Positions 43,564-51,894 of a DNA stretch of 64,000 nucleotides are shown piece after piece. The stretch spans positions 1 to 64,000 of the forward strand of contig VFZU01000001.1 in the NCBI GenBank assembly GCA_016870995.1, written 5' to 3'. This DNA comes from Acidobacteriota bacterium. GTDB lineage: Bacteria; Acidobacteriota; Terriglobia; Bryobacterales; Bryobacteraceae. Numbering within the stretch: the stretch's first letter is position 1; the number at the start of each line of letters is the position of its first letter. The position numbers and the translations under genes are program-made. Below the pieces are notes generated by a model. It saw nothing but the letters and a program-made list of their open reading frames with translations. It was not told the origin of the DNA and ran no database searches.

Positions 43564-46500
43564 TCAGTCGTAGCGGAGGACGTCCAGGGGGTTGACGCGG
43601 GTGGCGCGGCGGGCGGGGAGCCATGCCGCGAGGAGGGCAATCAGGACGATGCCGGAGACGGCTGTGAGGATCGTTGCCGGGTCGGTTGGTTTGAGGCCGC
43701 AAAGCTGGCTTTCGATGTAGCGAGAGAGCAGGATGGCAGAGGGGATGCCGACGGCAATACCGCCCAGGATCAGGAAGGCGATTTCTCCAAGAACCAAACG
43801 AAGGATGGATGTGGATTCCGCGCCGAGGGCGAGGCGGATGCCGATCTCTTTGAGGCGGCGGGCGACGGCTAGGGACAGTACGCCGTAGAGGCCGATGGAG
43901 GCGAGGATCGTGGCGATCAGGCCGAAGGCCGACGCGAGGAAAGAGACGAGACGCTCCGTCGAGAGGATCTGGTCCATCTGGTCGGAGAAGCTGCGCATTT
44001 CGTAGATGGAGAGAGTGGGGTCGAGCTGGCGGACCAAGGCTCTGGATTGAGCGAAGAGGGAGGATTCGTCGGCTGTGGCTCTTGCATAGACGACAAAAGA
44101 GAAAGGAACGGGCGCAGTGTAGAGCGGGATGAGGGCCTGGATGGGCACTTCGTCGCGAACGTTTTCGTAGCGGGCGTCGGAGAAGACGCCGACGATTTCG
44201 ATCTCGGTTTTGGTTCCAGGGTCGCCGCCGAAGCCGAAGTGTTTACCGAGGGGACGGCCGTTGAAATACTTGTCAGCGAACTTCTTGTTGATGAGGGCGA
44301 CATTCTTGGTGTCGTTGTCGCGGAAGTCGCGGCCCTCGAGGATGCGCATGCCCATCGTCTGGACGTAGCCGGGGGAGACGGCGTCCATGAAGGGGCCGAT
44401 GTTCTCGGATTGTTTGGCCTGGTAGCCTTCGACGGTGACGGTTGAATCCCACTCGAAGCCTTGCATCTTGGGGACGGAGCTGAGACCGACGGATTCGACG
44501 CCGGGAAGAGCTTTCATGCGAGCGACGAATTCGCGTTGGAAGTTGGTTATGCGTTCGAGCGAGTAACCGTTCAGGCTGGGGTCGATGCTGAAGGTGATGA
44601 GTCGCGAAGGTTTGAGGCCGGTGTCTACGTTGCGGAGGTTTTCGAGGCTGCGGACGAAGAGGCCAGCGGCGATCAGCAGGAGGATCGATAGCGAGACCTG
44701 GACGCCGACGAGGGCTTTGCGGAGGATGCCGCTGCCGCCCGCGATGCCGCGACCTTCGGCTTTGAGCGCTGGGGCGGTGTCGGCTCGTGAGGCTGTGAGG
44801 GCCGGGAAGAGGCCGAAGAGCAGGCCTGTCGTTGAAGCGATGAGGAAGGTGAAGGCGAAGATGCGAAAGTCGGGTTTGGGGTCGAGCATGAGCGGCGAGT
44901 TGCCGGTGGGGAGGAAGCTGAGCAGGAGGGCGTCGATTGCATAGGCCAGGGCCAGGCCCACGACGCCGCCTGCGATGAGGAAGAGGATCTCTCGCAGGAC
45001 AAGCATGGTCACAGCATAGGATTCTGCGCCGAGTGCGATGCGGATGCCGATTTCGCGGAGCCGGCGCGAGACGGCGAGGGAGAGGACTCCGTAGAGGCCG
45101 ATTGCAGCGAGCACGGTGGCCACAATGCCGAAGGCGCTGGCGAGGAAGCTCATGAGGCGCTCGGTGGAAAGGGCGAGATCGATCTGATCTTCGAAGCTAC
45201 GCATGGCGTAGATGGGGAGGTTGGGGTCTAACTGGCGCATGAGACCGCGGAGTTGTGAGAAGACGGCTTGTTCGTCGCTGGAAGTGCGGACGTAGGCGAC
45301 CATCGAGGCGGGGTAGCCGGTTTGGTAGAGGGGAACCAGGACCTGGAGTTGCACTTCTTCGCGGAGGTCCATGTATTTGGCGTCGGAGAAGACGCCGACG
45401 ATTTCGATGTTGGTTTGTGTGCCGGGGTCGCCGCCCATGCCGAGGTGGTAGCCGATGGGGTTGCGGCCTTTGAAATAGGTGTCGGCGAATTTCTTGTTGA
45501 TGAGGCAGGCGCGCCAAGTTGGGGCTGCAGCGGCGGGCGTATCGGAGTTCATGTCGGAGTCGAGGAAGTCGCGGCCCTCGAGGATTTTCATGCCCATGGA
45601 TTCCACGTAGCCAGGAGTGACGGCGTCGAAGTAGGGGCCGGGCATGCGGGAGTAGTCGTGTTTGAAGCCCTCGACGGTGACGTTGGAATCCCACTCGAAG
45701 CCGGACATCTTTGCGATGGTGGCGACGCTTGCTCTGGTGACGCCGGGGAGTGCCTCCGCGCGCTGGCGGAACTCGCGCATCATCTGCTTGATCTGCTCGA
45801 CAGAATAGCCGGAGAGGGAGGGTTCTGCCTGGAAGGTGATGAGGCGGGTTGCCTGGAGGCCGGTGTTGGTGAGTTTGAGATTTTGAAGGGTCTTGACGAA
45901 GAGGCCCGCGGCGATGAGCAGGAGGATCGAGAGGGCGACCTGGACGCCGACGAGAGTCTTGCGGATGAGGCCAGAGGAGCCAGTGGACATGCCGCGGCCT
46001 TCTTCTTTGAGGGCTGGGGCGGCATCCGCACGGTCGGCGCTGATGGCGGGGAAGAGGCCGAACACGATGTCGGTAATGAAGGCGACGGCAAAGGTGAAGG
46101 CGAGGATGCGCCAATCGGGAGCAGCCGCAAGGCGGAGTGGAGATGAGCCGGGTGGAAGGAAGGAGATGAGAAGCGAATTGAGGGAGAAGGCGAGGATGAG
46201 GCCGGTGCCGCCGCCGAGGAGGCTGAGGAGAGTGCTCTCGACCAGGAGCGGGCGCATCAGTCGCCAGCGGCTGGCGCCGAGGGCAGCGCGGACGGCGAAC
46301 TCTCTGCGGCGGCTCATGGAGCGAGCAATTAAGAGGTTGGCGACATTGGTGCAGGCGATGAGGAGCACGAGGCCGACAATGCCCATGAGAATCCAGAGGG
46401 GTTGCGCCACCTGGCGGCGCATGCCGGAGTAGCCGTTGGCGGCGGGTTCGAGATCGAGACGGCCTTTAAGGAAAGCGCTTTTCGCTTCTGGGGCGGCGGT

Positions 46501-47298
46501 GGCGAAGGCCTCGGCGGTGACTTCGGTCTGGCGCATGGTGGAGAACTGAGTCTGGAGTTGCGCTTTAGCCTGGTCTGGGGAGAAGCCTGGTTTGAGGCGG
46601 GCGAAGATTTGGACCCAGCGGTTTCGGCGGTTCTCCATCAGGCCGGGACCCCAGGAGGGCATCATCTCGCGATGCATTGCGACCGGCATGCGGAGGCTGA
46701 TTGCGCGCGTGGGGTCGAGGCCGAAATAGTCGGGGGCGCTGACGCCGATGATGGTGAGCTTGATGTTGTTGACGAGGAGGTCTTTGCCGAGGATGGAGGG
46801 GTCGGCGGAGAATCGGGTTTTCCAGTAGTCGTAGCCGAGGACTGCGACGGGGTGGCCGCCGAGCGTCTTATCGTCATCGGGGGTGATGAGGCGGCCGAGA
46901 TGGGGCTTGACGCCGAGGACGTCGAAGTAGTTGCCGGAGATGATCTCGCCGCCGGTGCGCTCTGAGGTGCCTTCGAAGGTGACGCTGAGAGAGATTTCAC
47001 GGCGGCAAAGCAGACCGGCGTGTACGGGGGATTGGTCACGGAAGTCCCTGTACCTCGGGTAGGAATGCATGCGGGGACCGGAGTTGGAGCCGTAGTGCGA
47101 GCCGGTTTGGAACAGTTGGACGAGTTCGCCGGGGCGCTCGACTGGGAGTGTCTTGAGGATGACCTGATCGATGAGGCTGAAGATTGCGGAGTTGGCGCCG
47201 ATGCCGAGGGCTAGCGAGGCCACGGCGACGAAGGTGAAGAGAGGAGCTTGGAGGAGGCCACGGAGGGCGCTACGGATTTCGTCGATGAGGCCGTGCAT
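43564..47298 (-). CDS. ABC transporter permease, ADOP/MacB-FtsX family, with an extra internal FtsX-PCD module
   Basis: MHGLIDEIRSALRGLLQAPLFTFVAVASLALGIGANSAIFSLIDQVIL; three GL(Q/K)(A/P)xRLITF/IxLYGVLSLAV-type segments; C-terminal LLAAWLPARRATRVNPLDVLRYD. Confidence 0.93.
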   Translation of the reverse strand: MHGLIDEIRSALRGLLQAPLFTFVAVASLALGIGANSAIFSLIDQVILKTLPVERPGELVQLFQTGSHYGSNSGPRMHSYPRYRDFRDQSPVHAGLLCRREISLSVTFEGTSERTGGEIISGNYFDVLGVKPHLGRLITPDDDKTLGGHPVAVLGYDYWKTRFSADPSILGKDLLVNNIKLTIIGVSAPDYFGLDPTRAISLRMPVAMHREMMPSWGPGLMENRRNRWVQIFARLKPGFSPDQAKAQLQTQFSTMRQTEVTAEAFATAAPEAKSAFLKGRLDLEPAANGYSGMRRQVAQPLWILMGIVGLVLLIACTNVANLLIARSMSRRREFAVRAALGASRWRLMRPLLVESTLLSLLGGGTGLILAFSLNSLLISFLPPGSSPLRLAAAPDWRILAFTFAVAFITDIVFGLFPAISADRADAAPALKEEGRGMSTGSSGLIRKTLVGVQVALSILLLIAAGLFVKTLQNLKLTNTGLQATRLITFQAEPSLSGYSVEQIKQMMREFRQRAEALPGVTRASVATIAKMSGFEWDSNVTVEGFKHDYSRMPGPYFDAVTPGYVESMGMKILEGRDFLDSDMNSDTPAAAAPTWRACLINKKFADTYFKGRNPIGYHLGMGGDPGTQTNIEIVGVFSDAKYMDLREEVQLQVLVPLYQTGYPASMVAYVRTSSDEQAVFSQLRGLMRQLDPNLPIYAMRSFEDQIDLALSTERLMSFLASAFGIVATVLAAIGLYGVLSLAVSRRLREIGIRIALGAESYAVTMLVLREILFLIAGGVVGLALAYAIDALLLSFLPTGNSPLMLDPKPDFRIFAFTFLIASTTGLLFGLFPALTASRADTAPALKAEGRGIAGGSGILRKALVGVQVSLSILLLIAAGLFVRSLENLRNVDTGLKPSRLITFSIDPSLNGYSLERITNFQREFVARMKALPGVESVGLSSVPKMQGFEWDSTVTVEGYQAKQSENIGPFMDAVSPGYVQTMGMRILEGRDFRDNDTKNVALINKKFADKYFNGRPLGKHFGFGGDPGTKTEIEIVGVFSDARYENVRDEVPIQALIPLYTAPVPFSFVVYARATADESSLFAQSRALVRQLDPTLSIYEMRSFSDQMDQILSTERLVSFLASAFGLIATILASIGLYGVLSLAVARRLKEIGIRLALGAESTSILRLVLGEIAFLILGGIAVGIPSAILLSRYIESQLCGLKPTDPATILTAVSGIVLIALLAAWLPARRATRVNPLDVLRYD
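43680..46150 (-). repeat. In-frame tandem internal duplication (two diverged units of about 1.2 kb) within the ADOP permease
   Basis: Homologous points GAAGCTGCGCAT (43987) and GAAGCTACGCAT (45193) are 1206 bp (402 codons) apart; protein units SPLRLAAAPDWRILAFTF...MRSFEDQIDLALSTERLMSFLASAFGIVATVLAAIGLYGVLSLAV and SPLMLDPKPDFRIFAFTF...MRSFSDQMDQILSTERLVSFLASAFGLIATILASIGLYGVLSLAV. Outer limits approximate. Confidence 0.85.
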
Positions 47299-47577
47299 GA
47301 TGGGAGTACGCGCGAGGTGGAGGAGTGTTGCCGCAATTTCCTGGGACGAATGGGCGGGTGACTTGCGCGACAACACCAGCTTAGTGCAACCACCAATGCG
47401 AGTGCCCGCGCTGCGTCACATGAATCTGTAGTGTAACTTTCACATTAAAGCTATTGATTCGGAAAAAAATGGAATTAATCTCATCTCATTAATGCACTAA
47501 GGTTTATTGTTTTGTCCATGATATTGGCTTATTAATCTACTTCTCTTTACGGTCAGAGTTGCTCGGGAAACTGTCAA

Positions 47578-48039
47578 TTGGCATTTGGTCTCGATCTTCA
47601 ACAAGCACGAAATGCAAGAACAGCGTGCTCAATCAATGCAGGTAATTGGTACAACGAATGCCAGCGGCAGGCGAGCGACCTTTATACAAATTGCCAAGCG
47701 TGGCTCTCAGATGGTTCTGGCATTTACTGGTCGTGTATGTCCTTTTACTATCAATTTGCCGAATCCTGTGAACTTGGCTGGAGTCAAATGAGCGCAGAGT
47801 GTGCTTCGATGGATTGGGGAATTCAATTGTTGGAGCAAGACTTGGCAAGGTGTCTTGAATGTTGTGCAAACCCTGCGTGTTCGGGGGGAGAGGAAGATTA
47901 CTTAGCTTTTGGATTCTTGCGCATCCAAATGCCTTGTGGTTTTCAAATGCAGATAAAGCGCTTTGGAATTGGGATTTATCCTGAGTTAAATCGATTCAGC
48001 GTCCAACTGTTTTCGCTGAGCGAACGAAAAGAAAAATAG
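47578..48039 (+). CDS. Cys-rich hypothetical protein with CX10C repeats
   Basis: No ATG; ORF open from 47536 after TAA at 47533; TTG is the tracked start. Regular Cys spacing through CSINAGNWYNEC QRQASDLYTNC ... WSC MSFYYQFAESC ELGWSQMSAEC. Confidence 0.55.
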   Translation: MAFGLDLQQARNARTACSINAGNWYNECQRQASDLYTNCQAWLSDGSGIYWSCMSFYYQFAESCELGWSQMSAECASMDWGIQLLEQDLARCLECCANPACSGGEEDYLAFGFLRIQMPCGFQMQIKRFGIGIYPELNRFSVQLFSLSERKEK

Positions 48040-48048
48040 GAGCCAAAA

Positions 48049-48930
48049 ATGAAAATCTTTCGTAGGTCGATACTTTTTTCCTTCACTGTTGTTTTCTTTG
48101 ATGCTTATCGATTAGACGCTCAGTCGATCTTCAAGCAAGAATGGGACTCGAAAATCGATCAAATTGCCTCTGAGGTTAGCGCCAAAAACTACAAGGGGGC
48201 AGCAGGTCTGTTGAATCCGATTGTTCTTGAGCTAATGAAGGCACGGAATGGGAGGCCGATGCCGGGGCCGAAGGAAGTGGGGGAGCTGTTGCGGACGGAT
48301 GCAGCGATTGTGGAGAGCATGAGGGGGCTGAAGATCGAATTGAGGCGGAGTGATTTGGCTCCTGCGCTGCTGAGTGCGTATCGGTTGGGGATGTCGCTGA
48401 GTTATATGGATTCGATGCTTGCGCCGGAATTGAGGTTGAGGCAGGAGCGGCTGGCGATGCCACAAGGGCAGAAAGGGCGGGCCCTAGTTGTTGTCTCGAA
48501 CCCGACGATGCTGGCGGCGTTTCGCGGGAACGAGTTTGGTGAGGCGGAGCGTTTGGCGCAGACGATCCTGAGTACGGAAGTGAAGGAAGAGGCTGGTGTG
48601 CCGGGGGTGGCGCGGTTCCGGCATAACGCGTATACGGTTCTGGGGCTGGTTGCGTTGAACCGGAAGGATGTGGAGGCGGCGAAGCGGCATCTTGTGGCGT
48701 CCGTGTCGGGGTTGAAGGCGGATGAGACGGTGGCGGGAGGGCAGCCGAATCTGGCGTTAGCGGAGGGATTGTTGAAGGCTGGTGAGAAGTCGGCCGTGCA
48801 GGAGTACGTGCGGATGTGTACTGAATTTGCAGGATGGGAGCAATCGAAGGCGAAGTTGCGGCGTTACCTGTCAGAGGTTGAGGCCGGAACGCGGACTACG
48901 TTTGCTCCCGAACATTTGCTGATGTTTTAG
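48049..48930 (+). CDS. Hypothetical secreted protein, helical-repeat-like
   Basis: 293 aa; preceded by AGGAG; signal-like MKIFRRSILFSFTVVFFDAYRLDAQS; ARFRHNAYTVLGLVALNRKDVEAAKRHLVAS TPR-like segment. Confidence 0.75.
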   Translation: MKIFRRSILFSFTVVFFDAYRLDAQSIFKQEWDSKIDQIASEVSAKNYKGAAGLLNPIVLELMKARNGRPMPGPKEVGELLRTDAAIVESMRGLKIELRRSDLAPALLSAYRLGMSLSYMDSMLAPELRLRQERLAMPQGQKGRALVVVSNPTMLAAFRGNEFGEAERLAQTILSTEVKEEAGVPGVARFRHNAYTVLGLVALNRKDVEAAKRHLVASVSGLKADETVAGGQPNLALAEGLLKAGEKSAVQEYVRMCTEFAGWEQSKAKLRRYLSEVEAGTRTTFAPEHLLMF

Positions 48931-51809
48931 AAGCTGAAGCGGAGTGAGAGGTCGATGCGGCGGTTGGCGGCTGCGCCACCGCCACCTCCTCCTCCGGGAC
49001 CGAAGCCTGCGCCGCTGGCAGTGGATGTTGAGATACCGAAGAAGGGGCTGCCGAGGTTGCCTTGGGGTGTTGCGAGGTTGACGGTGTTGAGGACGTTGCG
49101 GGCATTGATGGAGAAATTCAGGGTGTACTTACGGGAAGTTGCGGAGCCACCGTCCATGCCGGCCATTCCACCGCCGCCGCCACGCTTGCCGCCCATGGCG
49201 CGCTTGTCGCTTTTGCCCCCACCACCCTTACCGCCGCCACCGCCACCGCCGCGCATGCCGCGGGCGGGTCGTTCGGTTGCTGGGCCGAAGCCCCAGCTCT
49301 TGGAGAGGCGGAGGTTGAGCGAGTAGTTCGAGGGCCCACGGCCAAAGTTGCGAGGGATGATCTTGTCGCCGGGACCGGGGTTGAGAATGAAACTGCCCCA
49401 CTGCGTTTTGACGACGCCGGGGGCGTTCGGATTCGAGGCAAAAGCGGGGCGCTCGGTGAACAGGGTGTCGCCGTTGGTGTCGCGGCCTGTCGTGATGTTG
49501 AATGGCGCGCCGGAGTTGAACTGGAAGAAGGGGCTGAGGCTGATGCCCCATTTGGCGGTGAGCGAGCCGGCGATCATAAAGCGATTCCGGATGTCGTTGC
49601 GGCCTGGGCCATATTCGTTACGGAGGTCGTAGGGGTTAGCGGGGCCGCCGCCGTCGGTATCGGCGCGCGCGAAGTTGAGCGAGTAGTAACCGAAGAGGCT
49701 GACGCTGTTGAGGAGGCGAGTGGAAAAGTTCGTCATCAACTGGTTCTGGCGCGAGAAGCCGGTGGACTCATTGAGAAACAGGTTGCCGGTGTCGCCGAAG
49801 GGGCGGACGCCGTTGTCGAACGGAGTGTTGATGTTGCGCTGACGAAGGAGGTGAACGCCGCGGGAGATGATGTAGTTGACGCTTACGTTCGAGTTGCGAG
49901 GCAGGGAGCGTTCGAGGCCAACGGACGACTGGATGAGGTAGGGGGTGCGAATGTCATCGAAGAGCTTGCGGATGGTGAGAGAGTTGCGGAAGGGCGTGAG
50001 CGCGGAGGCGGCGGGGATGTTGGGGTAGAAGTCTGGGTTGCGGACGATGTAACTGATCTGATTGATGCCGTTGAAGCGGCGGGCGTTGAGAGTGAGGTTG
50101 TCGTCGACGCGATCGTAGAAGATGCCGGAGCCGACACGGAGGACGGTCTTGGTTGGCTTTCTGTTGCCGCCGTCGAGAGCGATGGCGAGACCGACGCGAG
50201 GCGCGAAGTTGTTGTGGTTCGAGATGTTGGTCTGGTCTTCCCAGCGGAGGCCGGCCGAGAGTGTGGCGCGAGTGTTGACTCGCCAGTCCCATGCGGCAAA
50301 GAGGCCGATGTCCATCTGGGTAACGCCGACTTCGGGGTTCCCGCCGTTAATGGTGAACTGGCTGGCACCGCCGCCGAGGGCGCGGATTTGAGTGGGTGAG
50401 AGGCCTTGAGACTGACCGAGGAGTGTGATGCGGTAACGGTCGAGTGAGGTAATGGGCTGGCCGTTGAAAGTGCCAGCGGCGAAGGTGAATGTGCCGCCGA
50501 AGTTGTTGGGAGACAAATTGTCTTGAGAGGTGCGACGCCAGCGGCCACCGACCTTGAGGGCATGAGCGCCGATAGCGTAGGTGGTCATGTTGGAGAGCTC
50601 AAGGCGGGTGTCGCGCGTAGTGGAGACGCCGTTTTGAGGGCCGCCGCCTTGGAATGCGTCCTGAACGTTGAGGGCGGGGAGTGTGTTGTCGCCAAGTTGC
50701 TCGGTGTGGGAACGAAGCCACTGGAAGCGAGTCTCATTGATGGACCGGGCATTGAGGACTGCGGTCTCGGTGAGTTGAACTGTGTGGTCGGTGTCGCGTG
50801 TGTCGAAGGCGCGTGTGGGAAGAGCGAAGTCGCCGACGCCGCGATTGCCGGCGCGGGTTGGGTTGAAGCTGTAGCGGGCGACGAGGGTGTTGTTCTTGTT
50901 GATGGCGAAGTCAATGCGGTTGCTGATGTTGAGACGAGTTTGGGGCGTGATGATGGTTTGGCGGAAGGGCGAGGGCAGGAGTTGAGAGTCGAGGATGGTG
51001 GCGTTGATGATGGCGTTTTCTTCGACGTTGCGGCCTTCGATGTCGATGGAGAAGGAGGCCCTTTTGCTGAGCGGACCGGAGAGGCGGCCGCCCCAGAGTT
51101 TGGAATTGAATGGTGCGCGAGTGGGTGCGAAGGGATTGCGGGAGTTGAAGGCGGAATCAGAAAAGCCGAAGTGGACTTCACCGCGGAATTTGTCGGTGCC
51201 GGGGCGAGTGAAGATTTCGATGCGGCCGAAGCCGATGCGATCGAATTCGGCGCTGTAAGGGTTGCGGTTGATGCGGACTTCGCGGATCGAAGACTTGGGC
51301 GGCAGGCGCCCGCCCGAGAAGCCATCGATGAAGAGCTGACCGCCGCTGGGGCCTGCGCCTGGGCCAGCGAGAGCCATCAATTCGTCCTGCAGAGCGTCGG
51401 GATCGTCGGAGAAGGCCTCGAGGTCTTCGGCGCTGAGAACGAGGGCGCTGGCATTGGAGAGCGGGTCTGTGGTGACGCCTTGGACTTCGCTTTGGACGGT
51501 GACGACCTGGGCTTGCGCGTCGAGAGACATCTGGATGTTGAAGACGGTTGTGCCACTGATCTGGAGGTCGTCGACGCGGTATTGGGCGAAGCCGGGCTTT
51601 TCGACGCGGACGGTGTATTTGCCAGCAGGGATGTTGCGGATTTCAAAGTTGCCAGTGTTGTCGGTGTTGCGACGTTGCTCGCGGCCGCCGGGTTGGGCGA
51701 TGCGAATCGTGGCGCCGGGGATGGCGGCACCTGAGGGATCGGTGACCTGGCCGCGGAATGGGTTGAGGCCAGCGGCCTGAGCAAGCAAGAGCAAGAAGAG
51801 TACTGGCAC
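48927..51809 (-). CDS. TonB-dependent receptor-like (Oar-like) protein with Gly-rich insertions
   Basis: FRGQVTDPSGAAIPGATIRIAQPGGREQRRNTDNTGNFEIRNIPAGKYTVRVEKPGF; C-terminal RRIDLSLRFSF. Probable GTG start at 51809 preceded by AGGAG; ORF extends to 51887. Confidence 0.9.
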   Translation of the reverse strand: MPVLFLLLLAQAAGLNPFRGQVTDPSGAAIPGATIRIAQPGGREQRRNTDNTGNFEIRNIPAGKYTVRVEKPGFAQYRVDDLQISGTTVFNIQMSLDAQAQVVTVQSEVQGVTTDPLSNASALVLSAEDLEAFSDDPDALQDELMALAGPGAGPSGGQLFIDGFSGGRLPPKSSIREVRINRNPYSAEFDRIGFGRIEIFTRPGTDKFRGEVHFGFSDSAFNSRNPFAPTRAPFNSKLWGGRLSGPLSKRASFSIDIEGRNVEENAIINATILDSQLLPSPFRQTIITPQTRLNISNRIDFAINKNNTLVARYSFNPTRAGNRGVGDFALPTRAFDTRDTDHTVQLTETAVLNARSINETRFQWLRSHTEQLGDNTLPALNVQDAFQGGGPQNGVSTTRDTRLELSNMTTYAIGAHALKVGGRWRRTSQDNLSPNNFGGTFTFAAGTFNGQPITSLDRYRITLLGQSQGLSPTQIRALGGGASQFTINGGNPEVGVTQMDIGLFAAWDWRVNTRATLSAGLRWEDQTNISNHNNFAPRVGLAIALDGGNRKPTKTVLRVGSGIFYDRVDDNLTLNARRFNGINQISYIVRNPDFYPNIPAASALTPFRNSLTIRKLFDDIRTPYLIQSSVGLERSLPRNSNVSVNYIISRGVHLLRQRNINTPFDNGVRPFGDTGNLFLNESTGFSRQNQLMTNFSTRLLNSVSLFGYYSLNFARADTDGGGPANPYDLRNEYGPGRNDIRNRFMIAGSLTAKWGISLSPFFQFNSGAPFNITTGRDTNGDTLFTERPAFASNPNAPGVVKTQWGSFILNPGPGDKIIPRNFGRGPSNYSLNLRLSKSWGFGPATERPARGMRGGGGGGGKGGGGKSDKRAMGGKRGGGGGMAGMDGGSATSRKYTLNFSINARNVLNTVNLATPQGNLGSPFFGISTSTASGAGFGPGGGGGGGAAANRRIDLSLRFSF

Positions 51810-51835
51810 TGAGATCGGACTCCTAATGAAAAACC

Positions 51836-51874
51836 GGAGACTGCCTCGTTTAGGGTAGCAACGAGGCAATCTCC
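51836..51874 (-). terminator. Stem-loop terminator downstream of the CpxP/Spy-like gene, in the 5' leader of the receptor gene
   Basis: Minus strand GGAGA-T-TGCCTCGTT...AACGAGGCA-G-TCTCC followed by GGTTTTTC. Confidence 0.6.
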
Positions 51875-51894
51875 GCATGGGGAACAATCTGTGT

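Follow-up and report, generated by a model that had tools for sequence, protein, structure and literature searches.

Does the cysteine-rich open frame at 47536-48039, which contains no ATG, encode a real protein, and what could such a protein do? The frame lies in the window, a stretch of 64,000 nucleotides from an Acidobacteriota contig (VFZU01000001.1), and the features of the locus are collected in Table 1. A preliminary description of this DNA gave the coordinates, the translation and the cysteine spacing C-x10-C-x10-C-x13-C-x10-C-x10-C, and all of them proved exact when re-read from the sequence. The 167-residue frame carries its 13 cysteines at positions 9, 13, 31, 42, 53, 67, 78, 89, 106, 109, 110, 115 and 134. 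Two disjoint C-x10-C-x10-C triads appeared in 111 of 200,000 residue shuffles (0.06%). The AT-richness pointed out earlier is also real: the GC content is 0.34-0.49 in the cysteine-rich region compared with about 0.62 on both sides, and the AT-rich composition runs on into the first ~180 bases of the downstream gene. As had been said, no ATG start is found in the frame. The GC content of its codon positions is flat (0.48/0.45/0.44), and the frame is present once in its own genome. The lack of a start codon, the stop just upstream and the flat codon-position GC are consistent with intergenic, AT-rich DNA that is open in this frame by chance. However, the spacing is rare in shuffles, and a chance frame is refuted by an intact gene in a congener (locus L003), which has conserved cysteines and the same place relative to the partner gene. 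Chance is thus an extremely improbable explanation.

Table 1. Features of the cysteine-rich locus in the window
Feature	Position	Strand	Evidence
Left flank, ADOP-type permease gene	43564-47376	-	Left homology to congeners ends at ~47319-47350
Inserted two-gene module, ~1.58 kb	47351-48927	.	Empty sites in congener loci L073, L074, L075
Degenerate signal-peptide segment (NALRFIVLSMILAY, then stop)	47494-47535	+	Profile with intact homologue aligns across TAA
Cys-rich protein, open frame	47536-48039	+	167 codons, 13 Cys; homologues L003, L002
Predicted helix 1 (Cys 9, 13, 31, 42, 53)	47554-47697	+	Model residues 2-49, pLDDT ~73-90
Predicted turn, includes SDGSG	47698-47718	+	Model residues 50-56
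Predicted helix 2 (Cys 67, 78, 89, 106, 109, 110)	47719-47868	+	Model residues 57-106, pLDDT ~80-89
C-terminal tail (Cys 115, 134), without confident structure	47869-48036	+	pLDDT <50, model residues 121-162
Partner gene, 293 aa, apparent signal peptide, alpha-alpha (TPR-like) repeats	48049-48930	+	ORF; intact
Right flank, TonB-dependent receptor-like gene	48927-51887	-	Right homology to congeners begins at 48928

A search of 101 related genomes matched two genomes of the same genus (E 2e-5 and 6e-5). In one of them, G006, the homologue is a complete gene of 168 aa (L003, 1384-1890, minus strand). Its N-terminus, MLSFRVILLLGIMTFGATLKAQ, is a typical Sec signal peptide, and the mature part contains 13 cysteines, all of which correspond in order to those of the window protein at an identity of 29%. 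The inner spacing is C-x10-C-x10-C-x11-C-x10-C-x10-C, and the turn length is its sole difference from the window. At every codon position, the nucleotide identity of the N half is 35-43%; of the 13 cysteine codons, 6-7 differ, synonymously only. Because of these synonymous changes and the low identity at all codon positions, the cysteines appear to be kept at the protein level. The cysteine skeleton is shown to be conserved in the intact homologue, and the remaining sequence is not. The preliminary description had proposed to look for a homologue with an intact signal peptide and the 11-residue cysteine spacing, and L003 has both. A lack of homologues or a loss of the periodicity had been named as evidence against the claim; homologues exist, and the periodicity is kept. 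Since a congener has the intact 168-aa homologue, 47536-48039 is, on this comparison, a formerly real coding frame. The case illustrates how a frame without a start can be shown to be real through comparative genomics.

The second homologue (L002, in G001) retains C-x3-C-x17-C-x10-C-x10-C in its N half, so that the spacing of the first three cysteines is kept there as well, and its frame is broken mid-gene. The broken G001 gene (L002, 1375-1961) has no canonical in-frame start, as in the window copy. Thus, three copies are known (window, L003 and L002) and two of them are damaged, which counts against the explanation that we favour below. The weaker matches of the 101-genome search were rejected as chance; the cysteine pattern was absent wherever their frames were read.

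We examined the damage in the window copy with a profile made from two proteins, that of the window and its intact homologue L003. The match spans 47494-48033 with one internal TAA, at 47533-47535, which is in frame and lies inside the stretch aligning with the L003 signal peptide. The residues upstream of this TAA, NALRFIVLSMILAY, are the counterpart of that signal peptide. No ATG, GTG or TTG was found at the expected signal-peptide start of the window copy, and the nearest ATG, at 47492, is out of frame. It had been guessed that the gene may be 5'-truncated. The guess holds in that there is no usable in-frame start, but the signal-peptide region is present and interrupted by a stop, so the gene is damaged rather than cut off. 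By its sequence, the window copy looks inactivated. The remaining frame is open and all cysteines are kept, and we therefore read the inactivation as recent. Probably, the cysteine-rich protein of this genome is no longer exported, with the partner gene intact. An assembly error in the draft genome could also account for the damage. It is also conceivable that the gene is intact, either because the TAA is such an error or because translation starts at an internal TTG. This would agree with a draft genome of 215 contigs and with a frame that is fully open past the stop and keeps every cysteine. However, apart from the TAA, none of the three start codons is present at the expected signal-peptide start, and with an internal start the protein would begin past the signal peptide and also past the first C-x3-C; without the signal peptide, export would be lost. 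Therefore, we consider an intact gene quite improbable and retain the reading of a recently damaged one.

The preliminary description suggested a disulfide-stapled alpha-hairpin with the pairing C1-C6, C2-C5 and C3-C4. This pairing is plausible, and the three pairs are probably the inner rungs of a five-rung ladder: the outer C-x3-C and C-x2-CC elements extend the same mirror-symmetric pattern, a continuation that had been overlooked. In L003, the mirror pairs are 23-123, 27-119, 45-101, 56-90 and 67-79, each with a sum of 146, and five exact rungs were reached by 0.00056 of gap shuffles. In the window protein, the sum is 120 for each of the three inner pairs and 119 for both outer ones; five rungs at a tolerance of one residue were reached by 0.007 of shuffles. 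Placed on an ideal helix, the cysteines of each half cluster on a single face (R 0.83-0.90, p 0.003-0.016). AlphaFold2 was run on the window sequence alone, without an alignment, using a construct that begins at frame residue 6. In the model, two helices of 48-50 residues each have a pLDDT of mostly 80-90, and the mirror centre of the cysteine pattern, at model residue 54.5-55, falls within the predicted turn. The mean pLDDT was 71 and the pTM 0.60, and the pLDDT of the five models went from 71 down to 28. Since these overall values are modest and none of the other four models is as strong, we take the model as support for the hairpin and not as proof. The spacing kept in L003, the mirror symmetry and the turn that a single-sequence prediction places at the mirror centre all strengthen the idea of a stapled hairpin, in which the mirrored cysteines are candidate disulfides. 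Thus, the protein is probably a disulfide-laddered alpha-hairpin of two long helices. The odd number of cysteines, 13, counts against this reading.

Alternatively, the cysteines could remain reduced, line a helical bundle and bind Cu(I) or Zn, as in Csp. Many cysteines do lie on one helical face, and the Csp family provides a precedent for a helical protein lined by cysteines. However, a protein with a Sec-type signal peptide is expected to reach an oxidising compartment. The mirrored cysteines of the two halves suit cross-helix pairing, whereas metal sites are more often CxxxC clusters. In addition, Pfam and NCBIfam gave no match, and no metal-handling neighbours were recognised. We regard metal binding as distinctly unlikely and keep the disulfide-laddered hairpin as our reading.

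In every copy, the cysteine gene is followed by a gene for an exported TPR-like protein, which starts ~10-20 bases after it in all three genomes. In the window, this intact second gene had been missed by the preliminary description. The full-length partner proteins, those of the window and the L003 locus, each have 293 aa and share 27% identity (E 1e-16). The model of the window partner is all-helical, with low confidence. Pfam had no match for the partner protein of the window or of L003, and the TPR_14 match of a relative in L060 (E 0.013) does not reach the curated cut-off. Of the 101 genomes, 25 contain relatives of the partner family (E <= 0.01), with as many as seven in one genome, mostly without a cysteine-rich neighbour. 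The window partner gene is split in composition, with the first ~180 bases AT-rich (GC3 0.48) and a GC3 of 0.72 in the remainder; the G006 partner gene is AT-rich over its entire length. In another family of the order, partner-related exported proteins of 350 aa form near-tandem arrays (L082, G065:C2, and L083, G065:C4), which have no cysteine-rich neighbours.

In G002, G005 and G007 (loci L073, L074 and L075), only 55-60 bp separate the same two flanking genes, with no gene in between; this comparison with three congeners shows the cysteine gene and its partner to be an insert. In the window, both genes are antisense to the flanks. The module occupies a different site in each of the three genomes, beside a DUF1684-like gene in G006 and a DUF418-like gene in G001 (both named by reading of the sequences). 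These neighbour genes exist in congeners as well, where no partner gene was found next to them. Repeats and promoter or terminator consensus sequences were looked for at the edges of the insert, and none were found. Between congeners, the flanking genes are ~62-80% identical and the module proteins 27-30%, which points to fast change or to separate acquisition.

Among the genomes searched, the module is present in only three, all of one genus. When 238 genomes of the family were searched with the profile, no match outside the genus was counted as real; we attributed four weak partial matches (E 0.015-0.07) to chance. Across 396 genomes drawn from the phylum it found nothing but the genus copies, and scans of GTDB contigs (two), IMG/VR proteins, plasmids and phages revealed no relative. 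At such high divergence, these searches may have missed distant relatives. The earlier remark that no described family was recognised agrees with our searches of Pfam, NCBIfam, PHROGs, PADLOC and PDB sequences, which gave no useful match (for either protein in the family libraries). PADLOC returned one match, at chance level (E 0.41), and hmmsearch matched no PDB chain up to E 10. Pfam and NCBIfam family models gave no match at E up to 1, and hence none to Csp. Foldseek returned nothing from the PDB at E <= 0.001, and the matches in the PDB and among viral models were only generic long helical hairpins. Literature searches on stapled bacterial hairpins and on cysteine-rich secreted proteins of the phylum brought up nothing relevant.

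We also searched for the cysteine architecture itself, using a DNA pattern of two C-x3-A-x3-Y-x2-C units. Within 258 genomes of the order, its sole occurrences were in the window and L002; within 396 genomes of the phylum, the window was the only one. In IMG/VR, 35 stretches contained it, and a ladder was seen only in L085 and L119, which encode one protein. This phage ORF, CVDACVAAWNTC...CDANWNAAYQTCVDNDGTCHYLC, has cysteine gaps of 4, 7, 11, 11, 19, 11, 11, 7 and 4, an exact mirror. L085 (3364-4221) is the IMG/VR contig IMGVR_UViG_3300013126_004103, and the same protein is found in L119/L121. The ORF lies among tail and internal-virion-type genes, and the ladder hairpin is apparently inserted into a larger virion-type protein. 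Like the window protein, it has a mirrored ladder on an 11-residue step; the likeness is in the cysteine spacing, and the phage ladder is probably convergent with the window hairpin. At another locus (L060, 1126-2324, G056:C602), the gene directly after a partner-gene relative encodes a different exported cysteine-rich protein. Its gaps, 11, 8, 6, 4, 12, 4, 6, 9 and 11, are nearly mirrored. In the family, a search for relatives of this G056 protein gave one doubtful match, without a cysteine-rich frame. The phage and G056 cases were chosen after inspection, which makes their p-values optimistic, and the resemblance of either to the window protein is one of cysteine pattern. Both cases suggest that the cysteine ladder is a solution reached more than once.

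Could the module serve in conflict or competition, as an effector/immunity-type pair in which a secreted hairpin antagonises or recognises a target and the TPR-like protein protects or presents it? An accessory insert at varying sites would be consistent with this, as would copies within a genus that are 27-30% identical between flanks of ~62-80%. An inactivated hairpin beside an intact partner, as in the window, is expected after the loss of the active half, and the hairpin has been lost in two of the three genomes. The G056 locus, too, pairs a partner relative with a different secreted protein of mirrored cysteines. However, neither PADLOC nor PHROGs gave a match, and the partner family is widespread without a cysteine-rich neighbour. 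On balance, we consider a conflict module unlikely.

With moderate confidence, we favour the explanation that the frame represents the main part of a gene which was damaged recently. This gene would have encoded a Sec-exported alpha-hairpin with a cysteine ladder, and it stands first in an accessory module of two genes. The protein would be exported through Sec and oxidised outside the cytoplasm, after export. Its two long helices would pack antiparallel and be locked by the cysteine pairs 53-67, 42-78, 31-89, 13-106 and 9-110. The product would be a stiff, protease-resistant rod, the shape of which would not depend on the other residues, and this would explain why conservation is limited to the cysteines and a few further positions. 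The fast-changing exposed residues may bind an extracytoplasmic target, the TPR-like partner encoded by the adjacent gene, or both. We infer that the protein functions as an exported rigid binding rod acting with this partner; their co-inheritance makes a binding test simple. A wider idea, which we offer tentatively and regard as rather doubtful, is that a mobile, fast-diversifying module exports the five-rung hairpin with a dedicated TPR-like partner, that constraint acts on the ladder alone and leaves the surface free to vary, and that the ladder has re-arisen in the phage virion protein and in the G056 pair.

The best-known helical hairpins with disulfide staples come from mitochondria and plants and have two rungs. 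Among bacterial proteins, the copper storage proteins (Csp) bind Cu(I) by reduced thiols inside a four-helix bundle. From general knowledge, Csp resemble the window protein in being helical, in having many cysteines toward one side and in the export of some members; the window protein differs in having no match to the family and in a mirrored spacing that points to disulfides. In the small Tim (twin CX3C) proteins and the plant alpha-hairpinins, cysteine pairs one helical turn apart close a helical hairpin. The outermost C-x3-C of the window protein is similar, again as compared from general knowledge, whereas small Tims and alpha-hairpinins have two rungs only, short helices and no sequence relation to it. 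The CHCH (twin-CX9C) proteins of the mitochondrial intermembrane space share with the window protein an antiparallel helix-turn-helix with inter-helix disulfides, which in the window protein are candidates. They differ in having two cysteines per helix in a short hairpin and in being imported without a bacterial signal peptide, whereas the window protein has five mirrored cysteines per helix and predicted helices of ~48 residues. CX10C spacing occurs in the CX9C-CX10C proteins COX6B1/Cox12, COA6 and COA5/Pet191 (PMC7909247, where small Tims are also mentioned). Because CX10C is found in real CHCH members, the 11-residue step is compatible with cross-helix pairing. The window protein departs from the CHCH motif definition by x10-x10 in both halves and an outer C-x3-C, and it has no match in Pfam and none to the sequence of any PDB chain. 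On these features it is not a CHCH member, although it would resemble CHCH hairpins in its working. If our reading is true, an exported bacterial hairpin with about five mirrored rungs and helices of ~50 residues would be a very stiff, small and sequence-tolerant scaffold.
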